Positions 12,631-28,222 of a DNA stretch of 28,258 bases are shown in pieces. Made by a program: the position numbers and the translations under genes. The stretch spans positions 1 through 28,258 of the IMG/VR virus record IMGVR_UViG_3300021964_000387. The stretch is one strand, 5' to 3'. Below the pieces are notes generated by a model. That model had not been told where the DNA came from, did no database searches, and was given only the letters and a program-made list of their open reading frames with translations. The DNA comes from a virus. The number at the start of each line of letters is the position of its first letter. The first letter of the stretch is position 1.

Positions 12631-14307
12631 TTAATATCCAAAATCTGCATCTGCAGGTGTATAAGCTTGTTCAAGACGTAAGTGTCTTAACTGAGCTAAT
12701 GGGTCGTTTACGCGTGGCCTAGACATAATAAGATACCTTAAGGCATCATATGCGTGATCAGGCGCATGAGTATCTACATCTTCGGGGTTTGATTTATCTA
12801 AAGGAATGCCTTGAAGCTCGCGTATCAGGCTAGGACAGCTACTGAAAATCTGTAATCGTGGTCTTCCGCTTGGCTGTAGCCTCAAGTATTCGTGAATCTG
12901 AATCTTACCCTGTATTCTATTTTTATCTGCTCTGCGTAGCTTGTGGCCTTGACGGACTAATGTTTCTCCGACTGTAGGGCCTGTAGTACCTGTTCTAGAC
13001 CAAGCTGCAGTATCTAAAACTCCTTGGACTGAAAAAGGGTCAGAGAGTTCCATCTCTGTTATTATAGCGCCTAAATCCTGTCCTGTCAAGCCTTTACGGT
13101 ACAATTCTCTATAAACAATTAAAGTATTGTCACTAGGATCTACTGCAGCCCATATACAAGCTGATTCACTGGCATAACCATAATCAATACCCTTAACTCT
13201 TTCCCAGTGCATAGGTATATCAAAAGGAGGAATAACATGTTCCTCTATGCTAAATTCGGTAAAAGCTGCCCCCTCGTTTACGTCCCAGTTGCCTTCAAGT
13301 AATTGCTTACGTTGCGTTGGGGGCAAAGCTTTAAGCATTTGCTCGTAACGTCCATCTGTAGCTAAGAATGGATTATCTTCTAAACGAGCTGGTATAAACT
13401 TTCTTGTTAAACCATCTTTACCTATAAAGCTTTTGTCAGGATCTGAAGGTTCTATATATCTTTTCTTTACCCAATGTGCGCCAACGCCACCGGGGTTAGC
13501 AGTACAACGCATGTAAGGCGTTATCTCGCTATCTGTTGTTCTTAGTCGTGAAGCTAAGTAATTCCAAGCAAACTCTGTAGGAAGGTGGGTAATCTCGTCA
13601 AAACCTATCCAGCTATATGCTTGTCCTTGATAACGATATACATCTGCATCTCGTTCAAGGAATCCAAACTCTATCTTAGCTCCGCTTGGGAAGTTCCAAA
13701 GCTTTTCTACTTCCCTATATTTACAACCCGGAAATGCTTTCGGGTATAACTCCCTTGACTTATCTATCAGCTCTCGCAGCTCTGGCATAGAGCGTCTTAT
13801 GATTAACGCCCTGTGAGCGGCCCTGTGAGCGTATCTGAGGGGGTCTACGAGCATAGCGTAGGACTTACCACCCCCTGCGGCTCCTCCGTACAATACGTCC
13901 GTCTCAGCGGCTGCTAGGAACTCTGTCTGAGGCCCTTCGTTCGGAGCAAAAATAACATTATCTTTAGCTTCTTCTTTAACAGCTTTTGGAGTACTTGACA
14001 ACTCTTCGGGCGTTATAATTTTAGGAGCATTAGGATTTTCTAACTTCTTCATAGTCTCTTTAGTATTTTTAAGAGACTCTTTATAAGAATATAATTTAGA
14101 TTCTACTTTAGCTATTTTCTTTTGTTTTTCTTTTATAGTTCTATTAGCAGTCATTTTAGCTTTAGTCTGGCTATGATAATTATAGCCTCTGCCTTTAGAA
14201 CCTTTTGGTCTTCCTCCTTTACGTTTTGGAGTACCGTCTTTTTTTAAAATAAAATTACCAGCATTATCGGTAACATATTTATCTGGATTATTGTCCCAAT
14301 CGTTCAT
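12631..14307 (-). CDS. terL: Terminase large subunit
   Basis: This packaging motor ATPase/nuclease has a Walker A (LYGGAAGGGKS) near residues 139-149 and a Walker B with DE in YSWIGFDEITH near 237. A coupling-type segment TANPGGVGAHWVKKR follows. The RNase-H-like nuclease is seen as VKGIDYGYASESA (Asp near 375), VLDTAAW (Asp near 432) and DTHAPDHAYDALRY (late Asp pair near 517-521). The N-terminal ~115 residues are an unusual basic extension with an AT-hook-like GGRPKGSKGRG and a Lys-rich coiled coil. I start at ATG 14307; an in-frame TTG two codons earlier is possible. It overlaps the 3' end of the upstream small gene by 20 bases. All catalytic motifs are intact. Confidence 0.95.
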   Translation of the reverse strand: MNDWDNNPDKYVTDNAGNFILKKDGTPKRKGGRPKGSKGRGYNYHSQTKAKMTANRTIKEKQKKIAKVESKLYSYKESLKNTKETMKKLENPNAPKIITPEELSSTPKAVKEEAKDNVIFAPNEGPQTEFLAAAETDVLYGGAAGGGKSYAMLVDPLRYAHRAAHRALIIRRSMPELRELIDKSRELYPKAFPGCKYREVEKLWNFPSGAKIEFGFLERDADVYRYQGQAYSWIGFDEITHLPTEFAWNYLASRLRTTDSEITPYMRCTANPGGVGAHWVKKRYIEPSDPDKSFIGKDGLTRKFIPARLEDNPFLATDGRYEQMLKALPPTQRKQLLEGNWDVNEGAAFTEFSIEEHVIPPFDIPMHWERVKGIDYGYASESACIWAAVDPSDNTLIVYRELYRKGLTGQDLGAIITEMELSDPFSVQGVLDTAAWSRTGTTGPTVGETLVRQGHKLRRADKNRIQGKIQIHEYLRLQPSGRPRLQIFSSCPSLIRELQGIPLDKSNPEDVDTHAPDHAYDALRYLIMSRPRVNDPLAQLRHLRLEQAYTPADADFGY

Positions 14308-14521
14308 TATCAATTATATTCTTTAAACCTTGATAAGATAGTTTACGTCCTGTTTTATATTCTAACCACATAGATCCATCACGTAAGGATAGTTTTTTAT
14401 TTATTACTGCTTGTTTAATATCTTCTAAAGCTTCTAATTCTTCTGGTATAGGTATTAATTGTTTATCTTCTTTTTTATAACCAAAAGGTACATGGCCTTT
14501 AAGCTTCCTCATATTCTCCAT
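14288..14521 (-). CDS. Small recombinase-like domain protein between terminase subunits
   Basis: About 77 aa when started at ATG 14521, which has AGAGG nine bases upstream; an ATG at 14584 would add 21 hydrophobic residues translated entirely within the terS reading region and looks less likely. The core MRKLKGHVPFGYKK, then LSLRDGSMWLEYKTGRKLSY and QGLKNII, resembles the DNA-binding Recombinase domain of large serine recombinases (the VPFGY and SLR-W/L-GR-x-LS-x-GL-x-xII pattern). The catalytic resolvase domain is absent. It overlaps terS (23 bases) and terL (20 bases), so it is coupled to packaging genes. A DNA-recognition accessory of the terminase is possible. Similarity to recombinases is seen by pattern only. 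Confidence 0.68.
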   Translation of the reverse strand: MENMRKLKGHVPFGYKKEDKQLIPIPEELEALEDIKQAVINKKLSLRDGSMWLEYKTGRKLSYQGLKNIIDNERLGQ

Positions 14522-14888: not shown

Positions 14889-14894
14889 ATTTAC

Positions 14895-14922
14895 ATTATA
14901 GGGCTAGATAGGCTGTTGTCAA
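14895..14922 (-). promoter_or_regulatory. Leftward late promoter, consensus sigma70, leaderless
   Basis: On the minus strand TTGACA (14922-14917), a 16-base spacer and TATAAT (14900-14895) match the sigma70 consensus at every position. TATAAT is followed by GTAAAT and then the terS ATG, so the predicted start base is the A of the start codon. No ribosome site exists between promoter and gene. Confidence 0.85.
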
Positions 14923-14943
14923 GTACTATTTTTTATTTTTTAC

Positions 14944-14972
14944 TTGACAAAATCAAATTTTAACTATATACT
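14944..14972 (+). promoter_or_regulatory. Rightward sigma70 promoter, divergent from the late promoter
   Basis: TTGACA at 14944-14949, a 17-base spacer and TATACT at 14967-14972 form a near-consensus promoter. Its -35 lies 21 bases from the -35 of the leftward promoter, so the two polymerases would compete for a small area. The expected start near 14979 falls inside the palindrome at 14976-14996. The message would run about 860 bases before the first gene. Confidence 0.75.
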
Positions 14973-14975
14973 AAC

Positions 14976-14996
14976 GTAATCGGTTCCCCCGGTTAC
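14976..14996. promoter_or_regulatory. Palindrome over the rightward transcription start, operator-like
   Basis: GTAATCGG and CCGGTTAC form an 8-bp stem (one G:U pair in RNA) around TTCCC. It begins 3 bases after the -10 hexamer, so it covers the expected start point. This suits a repressor operator, or a 5' hairpin protecting the early message. Confidence 0.6.
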
Positions 14997-15012
14997 ATAT
15001 AGATATATAGTA

Positions 15013-15097
15013 CCTTTAAATACCCGCCTTATGGTGTCAGGATCCTATAAAGATCTTATAGCATCTTGACACCTTAGTGGGTCTTTAAATACCCGCC
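15013..15097 (+). repeat. Direct repeat pair flanking a 41-bp inverted repeat
   Basis: CTTTAAATACCCGCC occurs at 15013-15027 and again at 15083-15097. Between them lies an imperfect palindrome at 15033-15073: left arm GGTGTCAGGATCCTATA, loop AAGATCT, right arm TATAGCATCTTGACACC, with 15 of 17 positions pairing. A TTGACA is embedded in the right arm at 15066. The whole arrangement looks like a protein-binding module or hairpin of a replication or promoter region. Confidence 0.75.
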
Positions 15098-15115
15098 CTG
15101 AGTACCTGCTTGACA

Positions 15116-15223
15116 CTCTAAAGTTCTCTAAAATGTATAACATTTAGTATATATAGGGGGTGGGGGGTGCTGGCCTCCTGCCCACCCCTCTAAGGACTCT
15201 AGAGTTCTCTAAAGAACTCTAAA
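15116..15223 (+). repeat. CTCTA motifs phased at about 10 bp
   Basis: CTCTA (often CTCTAAAG) begins at 15116, 15126, 15188, 15197, 15207 and 15217. Within each group the spacing is 9-10 bases, one helical turn, so the sites would face the same side of the DNA. Such phasing is typical of iterons or of arrays bound cooperatively. Confidence 0.65.
15157..15188 (+). repeat. G-rich hairpin within the control region
   Basis: GGGGTGGG at 15157-15164 pairs perfectly with CCCACCCC at 15181-15188 around a 16-base loop. No T-tract follows, so it is not a standard terminator. The G-runs on one strand could also form other structures. It stands out sharply from the AT-rich surroundings and separates the two groups of CTCTA motifs. 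Confidence 0.7.
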
Positions 15224-15479
15224 GATTCTAGCAAGCCCAGCCTTTAAAGTCTATATAGACTTTAGAAATCTCCAGAGTACTTTAAAGTACTTTAAAGTAA
15301 TAATAAATAAAATTACTTTGTAATTCTCATGTGCTTGATAGTCTCTTAAGAGACTTCCGAGTGTGTAAGTTTTAAAGAATCTTTAAAACTCTCCGAAGAA
15401 TTTCAAAGACCTACGAGATTTTCTCACCATAGTATAAATATACTATGAAGATTTTTCAAGTTAACTACAAAGTAGTTAA
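15201..15479. repeat. Run of short perfect palindromes and hairpins
   Basis: At least seven lie within 280 bases. AGAGTTCT/AGAACTCT (15201-15220, loop 4). TAAAGTCTATATAGACTTTA (15245-15264, no loop). AGTACTTTAAAGTACT (15276-15291). AAAGTAA/TTACTTT (15294-15319, loop 12). AGTCTCTTAAGAGACT (15340-15355). AGTTTTAAAG/CTTTAAAACT (15368-15390, loop 3). CATAGTATA/TATACTATG (15428-15447, loop 2). TTAACTAC/GTAGTTAA (15461-15479, loop 3). All arms match perfectly yet differ in sequence, so base-pairing and not a common binding motif seems conserved. Confidence 0.8.
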
Positions 15480-15782
15480 AAAAAGACTTGACAACCCCGC
15501 CAAAGTTGAGCTAATCGCGCACATACGTGTGCATACGCGACCCCCATAATCTATGATTATGAATTATTTTCACTTTACAATCCCGCCGAAGTTTGCCATC
15601 GCGTGTGTATGCATGTGTAGGCGCGACCCACCACTACTACGTAGTGACAGAAAAGACTTGACAGGCCTTCCGAGATTTGCCATCGCATGCAGGCTATGTA
15701 CACACATCACCCGCAGCTTTCTTCGTGCGCCGTCCGAAGGACTCACGCGCAGAAAGTTCTTGACAGCGGCCCGACTGGCATG
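15461..15782 (+). repeat. Four spaced units of hairpin, A-rich stretch and TTGACA
   Basis: TTGACA or TTTACA recurs at 15488, 15574, 15658 and 15760 (spacing 86, 84, 102). Each is preceded by a hairpin: TTAACTAC/GTAGTTAA, ATAATC/GATTAT, CACTAC/GTAGTG, and a GC-rich one at 15720-15740. Three are preceded by a run of A or T. The first two continue with CCCGCC(A/G)AAGTT, and units two and three share TTTGCCATCGC. Units one and two also carry a downstream CGCGACCC. Only the first has a passable -10 (GCTAAT, 16-base spacer). They are diverged tandem units of unknown role. Confidence 0.65.
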
Positions 15783-15842
15783 GCAAAGTGGAAAACGTCA
15801 AAGCAGCGCTGGGTTGCTTTGCCTCACACTCAGGAGACGTAT

Positions 15843-16268
15843 ATGTACGCAATCGACGAAAACCGAATCGCATCAAGCAAGCAGTTCAACGCAGTGTGTG
15901 CACACTACACACAGCTTATCGCAGATAAGCAACAGCTCTCTCAAGCCGACCGTTATACTTTGTATAAGCGGATGAGAGGGGCTGTCGGGCATTACTTCGG
16001 AGAAGTACTCAAGTCTAGGATGACTCATGGGGATGTGCAATTAGCTTTCGCTAATAAACTTGTGCCCTCGGATATTTTAATATCTATTAAAATTCCTACA
16101 GCTGCTAAAGCTGAACCAAAGGTTGAAGCGCCTAAGCGTGGCCGAGGGAGACCCAAAGGGTCTAAGAACAAGCCTAAAGTTTCTAAAGAAACTCCCGTGA
16201 CTTTAGAGCAACGAGTAAATTCTTTAGAATCTAAAATGGATAAAATATTAGAGATATTATCTAAATAA
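15843..16268 (+). CDS. AT-hook DNA-binding protein
   Basis: This 141-aa protein starts at ATG 15843, chosen because AGGAG lies six bases upstream; the frame is open further upstream but without a good ribosome site. The N-terminal ~85 residues form a helical domain (begins MYAIDENRIASSKQFNAVCA; later RYTLYKRMRGAVGHYFG). A linker carries an AT-hook (PKRGRGRPKGSKNK, about residues 98-111), and the end is a short coiled coil (LEQRVNSLESKMDKILEILS). AT-hooks bind the minor groove of AT-rich DNA. As the first gene after the control region, an early regulator or origin-binding protein is a sensible inference. No closer family is recognised. Confidence 0.8.
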   Translation: MYAIDENRIASSKQFNAVCAHYTQLIADKQQLSQADRYTLYKRMRGAVGHYFGEVLKSRMTHGDVQLAFANKLVPSDILISIKIPTAAKAEPKVEAPKRGRGRPKGSKNKPKVSKETPVTLEQRVNSLESKMDKILEILSK

Positions 16269-18450: not shown

Positions 18451-18607
18451 AGAGTCTTATGGTAGACGGTTAATTTATCCTGCTTGCGAAACATCTGATA
18501 TTTTATGCAAGCTTGCAGGTACAACTACCATGACTGAACAAGCAGTTAAATATATTAAAGCGTTAGGTTATAACATCAAAGTAAAACAAAAGGAAGTAAT
18601 AGTATGA
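18428..18607 (+). CDS. Small conserved phage protein, overlapping both neighbours (59 aa)
   Basis: The protein reads MHIWVTTKESYGRRLIYPAC and then ETSDILCKLAGTTTMTEQAV, KYIKALGYNIKVKQKEVIV. The 'PACETSxxxxxLAGTxTxTxxxxxxIKALG' pattern is one I associate with phage early regions. AGAGG lies seven bases before ATG. It overlaps the upstream gene by 23 bases and the DUF932 gene by 4 (ATGA), filling what would otherwise be a gap of about 150 bases. Function is unknown. Confidence 0.75.
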   Translation: MHIWVTTKESYGRRLIYPACETSDILCKLAGTTTMTEQAVKYIKALGYNIKVKQKEVIV

Positions 18608-19545
18608 ACAATGTAATCAATATGTTTGAAAGCGTTAAAGTTTCTGACTACGGCCCTGCTGATTTTGATATTGATCAAGCGCCGCTTACTTATATTACTG
18701 AAAGAGGTATTCAACAAGCATCCAAGCATGTAATATATAGAACAGATACTGGAGAAGAGTTAGGTATACACGGCTCACGGTACTCAGACTTATATGATTT
18801 ATCTTATAAAAGAATGATAGATAATCAAAGAGATTGTATTAATAAATCTGGTTTAGATTTAGGTGGTCTTAGCGAAGACATACAAGTATCACATAACGGT
18901 GCTAAATGTTTTGTTAGACACACCTTGCCTGATGTAAAACTACGAACTCCAGATGGTGATCAAGCAGCCTTAACGTTCTTAACTGTTAGTAGTTTAGATG
19001 GAACATTTCCTTTTGTATCTACAACAGGAGCTAATCAGTGGGCTTGTATGAACGGCCAAGTATTTACTAATGGTGCAGCTACCATGTATAAATCTAGACA
19101 CACTAAGAAATTAGATGTAGATCATGCCGCTAGGATTATGTATCAAGCTGTAGATATATTTAAAAACGAAGTAGAGAAGTGGTTTGTCTGGTCTGAGATT
19201 GGTGTTCATAATATAGATGCTTTCTTTGCTTTTGCTAAAGCAGCTAATGCAAAGGCAGTGTTTGCTTGGCGTAAAGAATACCCAACATCCCCTATAAGCG
19301 AGATGCTTTTACAACCTAAGATATATAGTAATACTGCTCTGATGTATATGTGGGATAAATATATTACACATTACTCTAAGAAGATGGGTACGAATCAATG
19401 GGCTGTATACAATACACTTACTGATTGGTCTACTCATGCTCCAGCAGCAAGGGAATCTTCTCAAGTAAACATTGCTTCTATATCTTATAAGCGTAGTGAG
19501 ACTGTTCGTGATACAATTATTTCTAACTTTCGGGAGGCAGCGTAA
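18604..19545 (+). CDS. DUF932 phage/plasmid-like protein
   Basis: This 313-aa protein matches the DUF932 phage/plasmid family in several blocks: YRTDTGEELGIHGSRYSDLY near residue 50, a beta core with FVRHTLPDVKLRTPDGDQAA, and LTFLTVSSLDGTFPFVSTTG. It also has ANQWACMNGQVFTNGAATMY, and near the C-terminus TNQWAVYNTLTDWSTHAPAA. The family's function is unproven; it is common on phages and plasmids and often lies near DNA metabolism genes, as here. It is the longest gene of the early block before thyX. The start overlaps the previous gene by 4 bases and the stop TAA overlaps the next ATG. Length is near the usual range of about 280-350. Confidence 0.85.
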   Translation: MNNVINMFESVKVSDYGPADFDIDQAPLTYITERGIQQASKHVIYRTDTGEELGIHGSRYSDLYDLSYKRMIDNQRDCINKSGLDLGGLSEDIQVSHNGAKCFVRHTLPDVKLRTPDGDQAALTFLTVSSLDGTFPFVSTTGANQWACMNGQVFTNGAATMYKSRHTKKLDVDHAARIMYQAVDIFKNEVEKWFVWSEIGVHNIDAFFAFAKAANAKAVFAWRKEYPTSPISEMLLQPKIYSNTALMYMWDKYITHYSKKMGTNQWAVYNTLTDWSTHAPAARESSQVNIASISYKRSETVRDTIISNFREAA

Positions 19546-27505: not shown

Positions 27506-27731
27506 AAAAGCAAAGCGCATAAATAAAAAAGCTAAAGAACTTTCTGTTGAATGGCTAAAGACTTTAGTGTCTGAAGAAGAAGCCTTGAAAGTTAAACACT
27601 CTTCTTATAATAAACTTGTTTATAATCAAAAGGGTACGGCAAGGTCTATGCCTTTTTCTTATAAAGGTATTAAACAAAAACTAAAAAAATTAAATGCTAT
27701 AGACCATTTAACTCTTAAGGATATAGAGTGA
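27486..27731 (+). CDS. Small basic protein between nuclease genes (81 aa or 78 aa)
   Basis: Very basic: MNGRKAKRINKKAKELSVEW, then LKTLVSEEEALKVKHSSYNK and SYKGIKQKLKKLNAID. Two in-frame ATGs are possible, 27486 and 27495; neither has an ideal ribosome site. It overlaps the upstream nuclease gene by 20 bases and the endonuclease I gene by 4 (GTGA). I associate similar small basic proteins with replication modules of marine podoviruses. It may bind nucleic acid; no function is established. Confidence 0.7.
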   Translation: MKYMNGRKAKRINKKAKELSVEWLKTLVSEEEALKVKHSSYNKLVYNQKGTARSMPFSYKGIKQKLKKLNAIDHLTLKDIE

Positions 27732-28222
27732 CTGTTAAAATAAAATCAGGGCTGCGCAAACGTAGAGTTAAAAGACCAGTAGAAAAAGAAGTAGTGAAAG
27801 GCTATGATTCTAATTGGGAATATGAACTACATACAGGCATCTTAAAAGATTGGGATATACATACAGATACCGTTGACTATATCGTTAAGCATACATACCA
27901 TCCAGACTTTATAAAAAAAATAAAAAACAAAATTATTTTTTTAGAAGCTAAGGGAAGGTTCTGGGATCATGCCGAGCATAATAAATATGTGTGGATTAAA
28001 AAAGCTTTACCAAAAAACATAGAGCTTGTATTTTTATTTGCTGATCCTGCCGCTCCTATGCCGGGAGCAAAGCGGCGTAAAGATGGTACTAAAAGATCAC
28101 ATGCAGAGTGGGCAGAAAGAAATGACTTTAGATGGTACAGTGTTTATAGCATCCCTAAAGATTGGATTGATGCTTCTTGCCGCATTGAAATTAATCCTGA
28201 CTATCCAGAGGAACAAGAATGA
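27728..28222 (+). CDS. Endonuclease I, T7 gp3 type (Holliday junction resolvase)
   Basis: This 164-aa protein starts with GTG at 27728, overlapping the previous stop as GTGA. The active-site signature of T7 endonuclease I is complete: an early Glu in YDSNWEYELHTGIL, then HTYHPDFIKKIKNKIIFLEA with KGRFWD, giving the Asp and the Glu-x-Lys of the PD-(D/E)XK site. The following KRRKDGTKRSHAEWAERNDF is also characteristic of the family. T7 gp3 resolves branched DNA and degrades host DNA as a domain-swapped dimer; the same role is likely. Length is slightly above T7 gp3 (149). It ends where another gene starts. Confidence 0.93.
   Translation: MTVKIKSGLRKRRVKRPVEKEVVKGYDSNWEYELHTGILKDWDIHTDTVDYIVKHTYHPDFIKKIKNKIIFLEAKGRFWDHAEHNKYVWIKKALPKNIELVFLFADPAAPMPGAKRRKDGTKRSHAEWAERNDFRWYSVYSIPKDWIDASCRIEINPDYPEEQE

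Follow-up and report, generated by a model that had tools for sequence, protein, structure and literature searches.

A perfect-palindrome array in the control region of an HMO-2011-type podovirus changes by compensated arm substitutions and loop inversions

The window, which is the whole 28,258-base stretch analysed here, is a fragment of the genome of an HMO-2011-type podovirus, and the record is incomplete. The assignment agrees with the large terminase (TerL), which is 42–66% identical to those of HMO-2011-type and related pelagiphage records, and with the T7-type replication genes, which are accompanied by a ThyX gene. A control region (14890–15840) divides the terminase and structural genes, read leftward, from the early and replication genes, read rightward. 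The GC skew switches sign at this region, a change that is confounded by gene direction. The early region also encodes a DUF932 protein (18604–19545), and the window genes examined in this fragment record include no recognisable phage RNA polymerase. The features that frame the control region are as follows.

14895..14972, both strands: back-to-back sigma-70-type promoters, TTGACA-16-TATAAT on the minus strand (14922..14895) and TTGACA-17-TATACT on the plus strand (14944..14972)
15014..15097, plus strand: CTTTAAATACCCGCC repeats (15014, 15083) around an imperfect hairpin (15030–15076) with a 21-nt arm
15109..15190, plus strand: conserved pre-array element, TTGACA-N17-ATGTATA..TTAGTATATATA, then a G/C-rich hairpin
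15486..15689, plus strand: three 34-nt direct repeats, ACTTGACA..CCCGCC..TTGCCATCGCG, at 15486, 15572 and 15656
15545–15561 and 15632–15646: hairpins between the 34-nt repeats
15843..16268, plus strand: first early gene (g1), whose product has a helical N-terminal domain, a K/A-rich linker and a C-terminal coiled-coil helix
22071..26157, plus strand: T7-type replication genes, namely a gp2.5-like single-stranded DNA-binding protein (SSB), primase-helicase and DNA polymerase
27728..28222, plus strand: phage endonuclease I (T7 gp3-like, junction-resolving family)

The promoters match the consensus at 12 of 12 and 11 of 12 positions. Their back-to-back arrangement is retained in close relatives, and the plus-strand promoter is also present in arrayless relatives. 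The CTTTAAATACCCGCC-flanked hairpin module that follows varies from no copy to several in alignments of close relatives, and its arms covary between copies in L104, L110, L111 and L113 (ACCGGACA/TGTCCGGT, ACCGAACA/TTGTTCGGT, GGTGTCAAGAT/ATCTTGACACC). The 15109–15190 element has promoter-like spacing, lies ∼140 bases past the promoters with the array directly after it, and is found both in array-bearing relatives and in several arrayless ones (L027, L031, L046). Its G/C-rich hairpin (15155–15190) bears in the loop CCTCCT, the complement of a Shine-Dalgarno sequence, within a conserved TGGCCTCCTGCC stretch that many relatives keep, with or without the array. On the far side of the array, TTGACA followed by the GC-rich CCCGCC..TTGCCATCGCG recurs as a ∼85-base repeat (15486–15766) that has no −10 box and, from its sequence, looks more like iterons than promoters.

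Between these elements lies an array of eight perfect hairpins or palindromes of 15–23 nt (15200–15479), with centres 29–59 nt apart.

15200..15221: hairpin 1, arm 9, loop CTAA
15245..15264: palindrome 2, arm 10, no loop
15278..15299: palindrome 3, arm 11, no loop
15311..15325: hairpin 4, arm 6, loop TTT
15340..15355: palindrome 5, arm 8, no loop
15368..15390: hairpin 6, arm 11, loop A, flipped to T in relative L095
15428..15447: hairpin 7, arm 9, loop AA, flipped to TT in relative L099
15461..15479: hairpin 8, arm 8, loop AAA, flipped to TTT in relative L101, arms compensated in L099

The initial annotation had described a dense run of perfect-arm hairpins over 280 bases, and its limits and spacing proved correct to 1–2 bases. 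It had also claimed more palindromes than random AT-rich DNA would hold, which is borne out by 300 dinucleotide shuffles of 15201–15479: eight hairpins with arms of at least 6 were observed compared with 1.27±1.01 (maximum 5) in shuffled sequence, and seven with arms of at least 8 compared with 0.15 (maximum 2), under a perfect-arm definition that favours the detection of perfect stems. This interval has the highest hairpin density anywhere in the window. Folding energies lay outside the shuffled range on both strands, with z values of −6.8 (plus) and −5.3 (minus) for 15180–15480, which no shuffle equalled, and of −11.1 and −6.8, respectively, for 14980–15840 (20 shuffles). With a GC content of 0.294, the array is AT-rich, whereas its flanks are GC-rich (0.557 and 0.515); weaker hairpins stretch the structured zone to about 15030–15760. 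Several identities for the array were considered and rejected. It is not coding DNA, as there is no open frame and the longest open stretch is 43 codons; no known RNA, tRNA or tmRNA was found in it; and there are no intrinsic terminators, the A-tract past hairpin 8 lying on the wrong side for plus-strand termination. Helical phasing of the hairpins was weak, with no sharp period (R 0.15–0.19 at 10.5–12, null 0.068), and is not relied on.

The distribution of the array was followed through 195 related or chance-matched loci obtained from searches with TerL, TerS and g1; these loci were picked by similarity and include near-copies. Arrays of 4–13 hairpins (arm of at least 8) of other sequence occupy the control regions of many uncultured relatives, with arms that reach 33 bp. 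The extreme case is L121 (2230–2800, minus strand), with perfect palindromes that have arms of 23, 26, 30 and 33 bp, one of its palindromes sitting shortly ahead of the first early start codon. Ten of the 11 large records (45–53 kb) bear an array, and in these ten every cluster of at least three hairpins is in the control region, with 0.04–0.20 hairpins per kb outside it; the eleventh, the genome of L027, has zero clusters. Unrelated phage loci, which were chance matches to an AT-hook-like stretch, contain at most two hairpins per 400 nt. The arm words TTTAAAG and AAGTCT are recurrent in arrays.

The array is nonetheless absent from several close relatives, TerL kinship is a poor predictor of its presence, and no hairpin array was present in the cultured records examined (HTVC115P, HTVC103P, HTVC033P, CRP-1 and HMO-2011). 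Searched at the nucleotide level against cultured phages, the control region gave no match. On the TerL tree the presence of the array changes about 11 times, at least nine of them on well-supported branches. Hence, the array is often gained, lost or exchanged. L026 and L028, for example, have nearly identical TerL proteins with an array in the control region of one and none in that of the other, which suggests that control regions are exchanged between phages.

Aligned close relatives reveal how the hairpins change. Both arms of orthologous stems are altered together with perfect pairing kept, as the initial annotation had supposed when it proposed that pairing itself is maintained; shuffled-range folding energy together with uncompensated loss of pairing, which it had named as counting against that proposal, did not occur. 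In 12 control-region clusters there were 93 distinct compensatory double changes, compared with one-sided changes to G-T (36), A-C (48) and other mismatches (81), where an event is a distinct alignment position so that the events are not fully independent. There is no wobble preference on either strand. Internal mismatches comprised 2 G-T and 11 A-C, a count that includes related hairpins and is suggestive at most. Both strands of the relatives' arrays fold about equally well.

The loops change by inversion. In 16 pairs of relatives, 15 loops were inverted to the reverse complement with the arms kept, for example TTAACTAC-aaa-GTAGTTAA to ttt, TTAACATC-ttc-GATGTTAA to gaa, and CTTTGAAGTTTA-ttc to gaa; 26 broken pairs were also present. 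In pairs that are at least 97% identical there were eight loop flips compared with one other loop change. The lone difference between L115 and L122 (99.7% identical) in scored stems and loops is a TTT to AAA flip. L103 and L115 (98.4%) differ by three flips, one compensated pair and no broken pair, and in one of their hairpins the flip and the compensated pair occur together (TCCAAAGTTAC-aaa-GTAACTTTGGA to TCTAAAGTTAC-ttt-GTAACTTTAGA). Among distinct changed loops of 3 nt, 6 of 19 are exact reverse complements (8.3% expected by chance for each; P=0.003). When only 1- and 2-nt loops were counted, the excess of flips was not significant against the pool null, and none of 20 loops of 4–6 nt was flipped. 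Neither the pairwise nor the cluster statistics amount to fully independent tests, and they serve as description, because the loci were chosen by similarity with near-copies included and the hairpin definition favours perfect stems. The compared sequences are separate metagenome assemblies, to which assembly artefact could contribute, though the 3-nt flips lie within unique flanks. A loop-flip count over both strands of whole records was discarded, because extended palindromes had been compared with themselves in it.

Compensatory change is ordinarily taken to prove that an RNA structure is functional. In the array, DNA-level copying can itself keep the arms paired, and compensatory change is therefore no proof of function. 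The combination of compensatory changes and loop inversions without wobble preference is instead the footprint of template switching during DNA copying, which we infer to be the process behind the changes in the array. A replicating strand would fold back on itself at a hairpin, or jump to the sister strand, and one arm would be copied from the other, such that the arms stay matched and the loop can invert. In this way template switching could create, correct and occasionally flip hairpins within one non-coding, AT-rich segment.

Template-switch mutations at hairpins are known in rRNA and microRNA genes, with loop inversion and multiple compensatory changes as their published marks (Monttinen and Loytynoja 2022, PMC8794818). 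The array shares with those cases its perfect stems, several compensations at once, loops inverted between unchanged arms, and flip and compensation in one hairpin. Those cases, however, are rare and lie in structured RNA genes, whereas here 5–10 hairpins stand in a row in a non-coding phage control region, flips outnumber other loop changes when near-identical genomes are compared, and there is no sign of RNA wobble. Mitochondrial repetitive hairpin-forming elements (PMC2800124) are likewise numerous non-coding hairpins, but they are described as repetitive and as having invaded many times, in contrast to the unlike sequences of the phage array at one site.

The primary origin of T7 consists of promoters followed by an AT-rich segment. 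The control region resembles it in having an AT-rich non-coding segment past promoters, and the genes of the phage include a T7-type polymerase, primase-helicase, SSB and endonuclease I. However, the promoters here match the host sigma-70 type, the fragment shows no phage RNA polymerase and, to our knowledge, nothing like this row of perfect palindromes occurs at the T7 origin. Among HMO-2011-type control regions, those of HTVC115P and HTVC103P have the same neighbourhood, with terminase genes leftward and early genes rightward, but these and the other cultured phages examined lack the array. No discussion of the control region was found in the literature on this phage group under the terms tried, and a literature search found no paper linking HMO-2011 with hairpins. 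N4-type hairpin promoters were considered and set aside, since these call for a conserved hairpin sequence read by a virion RNA polymerase and both the hairpin sequences and the loops of the array differ.

Our preferred explanation, which we put forward tentatively at a little under even confidence, is that the palindromes form an array maintained at the DNA level, which templated copying renews and which most likely serves, or at least arises from, replication initiation. The array would lie within a presumed transcribed leader, between the divergent early promoters and the early and replication operon; the AT-rich segment past the promoters would be opened, and exposed single strands would fold into hairpins. 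The site may be special in that replication starts there, or that the DNA is single-stranded there, and the fact that arrays recur at a single site across many lineages speaks for a local cause. A replication origin with single-strand initiation hairpins, an option raised by the initial annotation, is possible. The array is not an essential origin of the phage group, however, as it is missing in several close relatives and in the cultured ones examined and changes about 11 times on the TerL tree. A more specific proposal, which we regard as unlikely though worth stating, is a dedicated self-renewing array whose sole conserved property is perfect self-complementarity. The enzymes of phage replication and recombination would continually regenerate and flip it, and it would act in replication or early control with no sequence being conserved.

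A less probable alternative is that the early operon has a structured leader RNA, an 860-nt untranslated transcript from the plus-strand promoter in which the hairpins protect the message, control translation or bind host RNA-binding proteins, and compensation reflects selection on RNA pairing. The array is downstream of that promoter and ahead of the early genes, a position that suggests leader transcription; the plus strand folds strongly (z −11), and compensatory changes are present. Selected pairing in a plus-strand RNA would, however, give more G-T than A-C intermediates, and this was not observed (36 compared with 48), so that classic selection on RNA stems is not favoured. The near-equal structure of both strands, the zero-loop palindromes, the loop flips, the lack of loop conservation and the absence of an Rfam match at gathering score also stand against it. 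The leader RNA and the host-factor-capturing RNA offered by the initial annotation thus lose ground to copying at the DNA level.

A functionless mutational hot spot is, in our estimate, improbable, at about one chance in several: template switching would build and repair palindromes in any place that tolerates a long non-coding stretch, with no gain for the phage. Its footprints would be identical to those of the preferred explanation, the array is dispensable on the tree, and arrayless relatives retain the promoters and the conserved element. Against this, arrays are confined to one place, with 5–10 hairpins in 300–450 nt in many lineages, and unrelated phage loci have at most two per 400 nt.

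Least probable is a binding platform for a protein that would recognise cruciforms or AT-rich palindromes by their structure, for instance the g1 product, a role favoured by the adjoining position of g1, its homologues in nearly all array-bearing loci fetched with TerL, the arrays in loci fetched by the g1 protein where upstream DNA is included, and the recurrent arm words, but opposed by g1 homologues in several arrayless relatives, an array locus without g1 (L039), the lack of a PDB match to the g1 model and the weak helical phasing.

Under the preferred explanation of templated copying, compensation accompanied by loop flips but lacking wobble intermediates means that DNA copying can mimic the proof of RNA structure in a phage, and the array is a natural locus in which such events are frequent enough to follow in metagenomes. 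If the array is functional, it would be a control element with structure and no fixed sequence, and a handle on the start of replication in an abundant marine phage group.

A link between g1 and the array is possible. Homologues of g1 were detected with an HMM in some arrayless loci in addition to nearly all array-bearing ones. Pfam and PHROGs searches with the g1 protein returned nothing usable, and Foldseek gave no match to its model among solved structures. The model (mean pLDDT 75) has a small helical domain joined by a disordered basic linker to a C-terminal helix, and the linker carries the AT-hook-like GRGRPKGSK. An AT-hook-like GRPKGSK stretch is common to the g1 protein and the N-terminus of TerL (12631–14313, minus strand).
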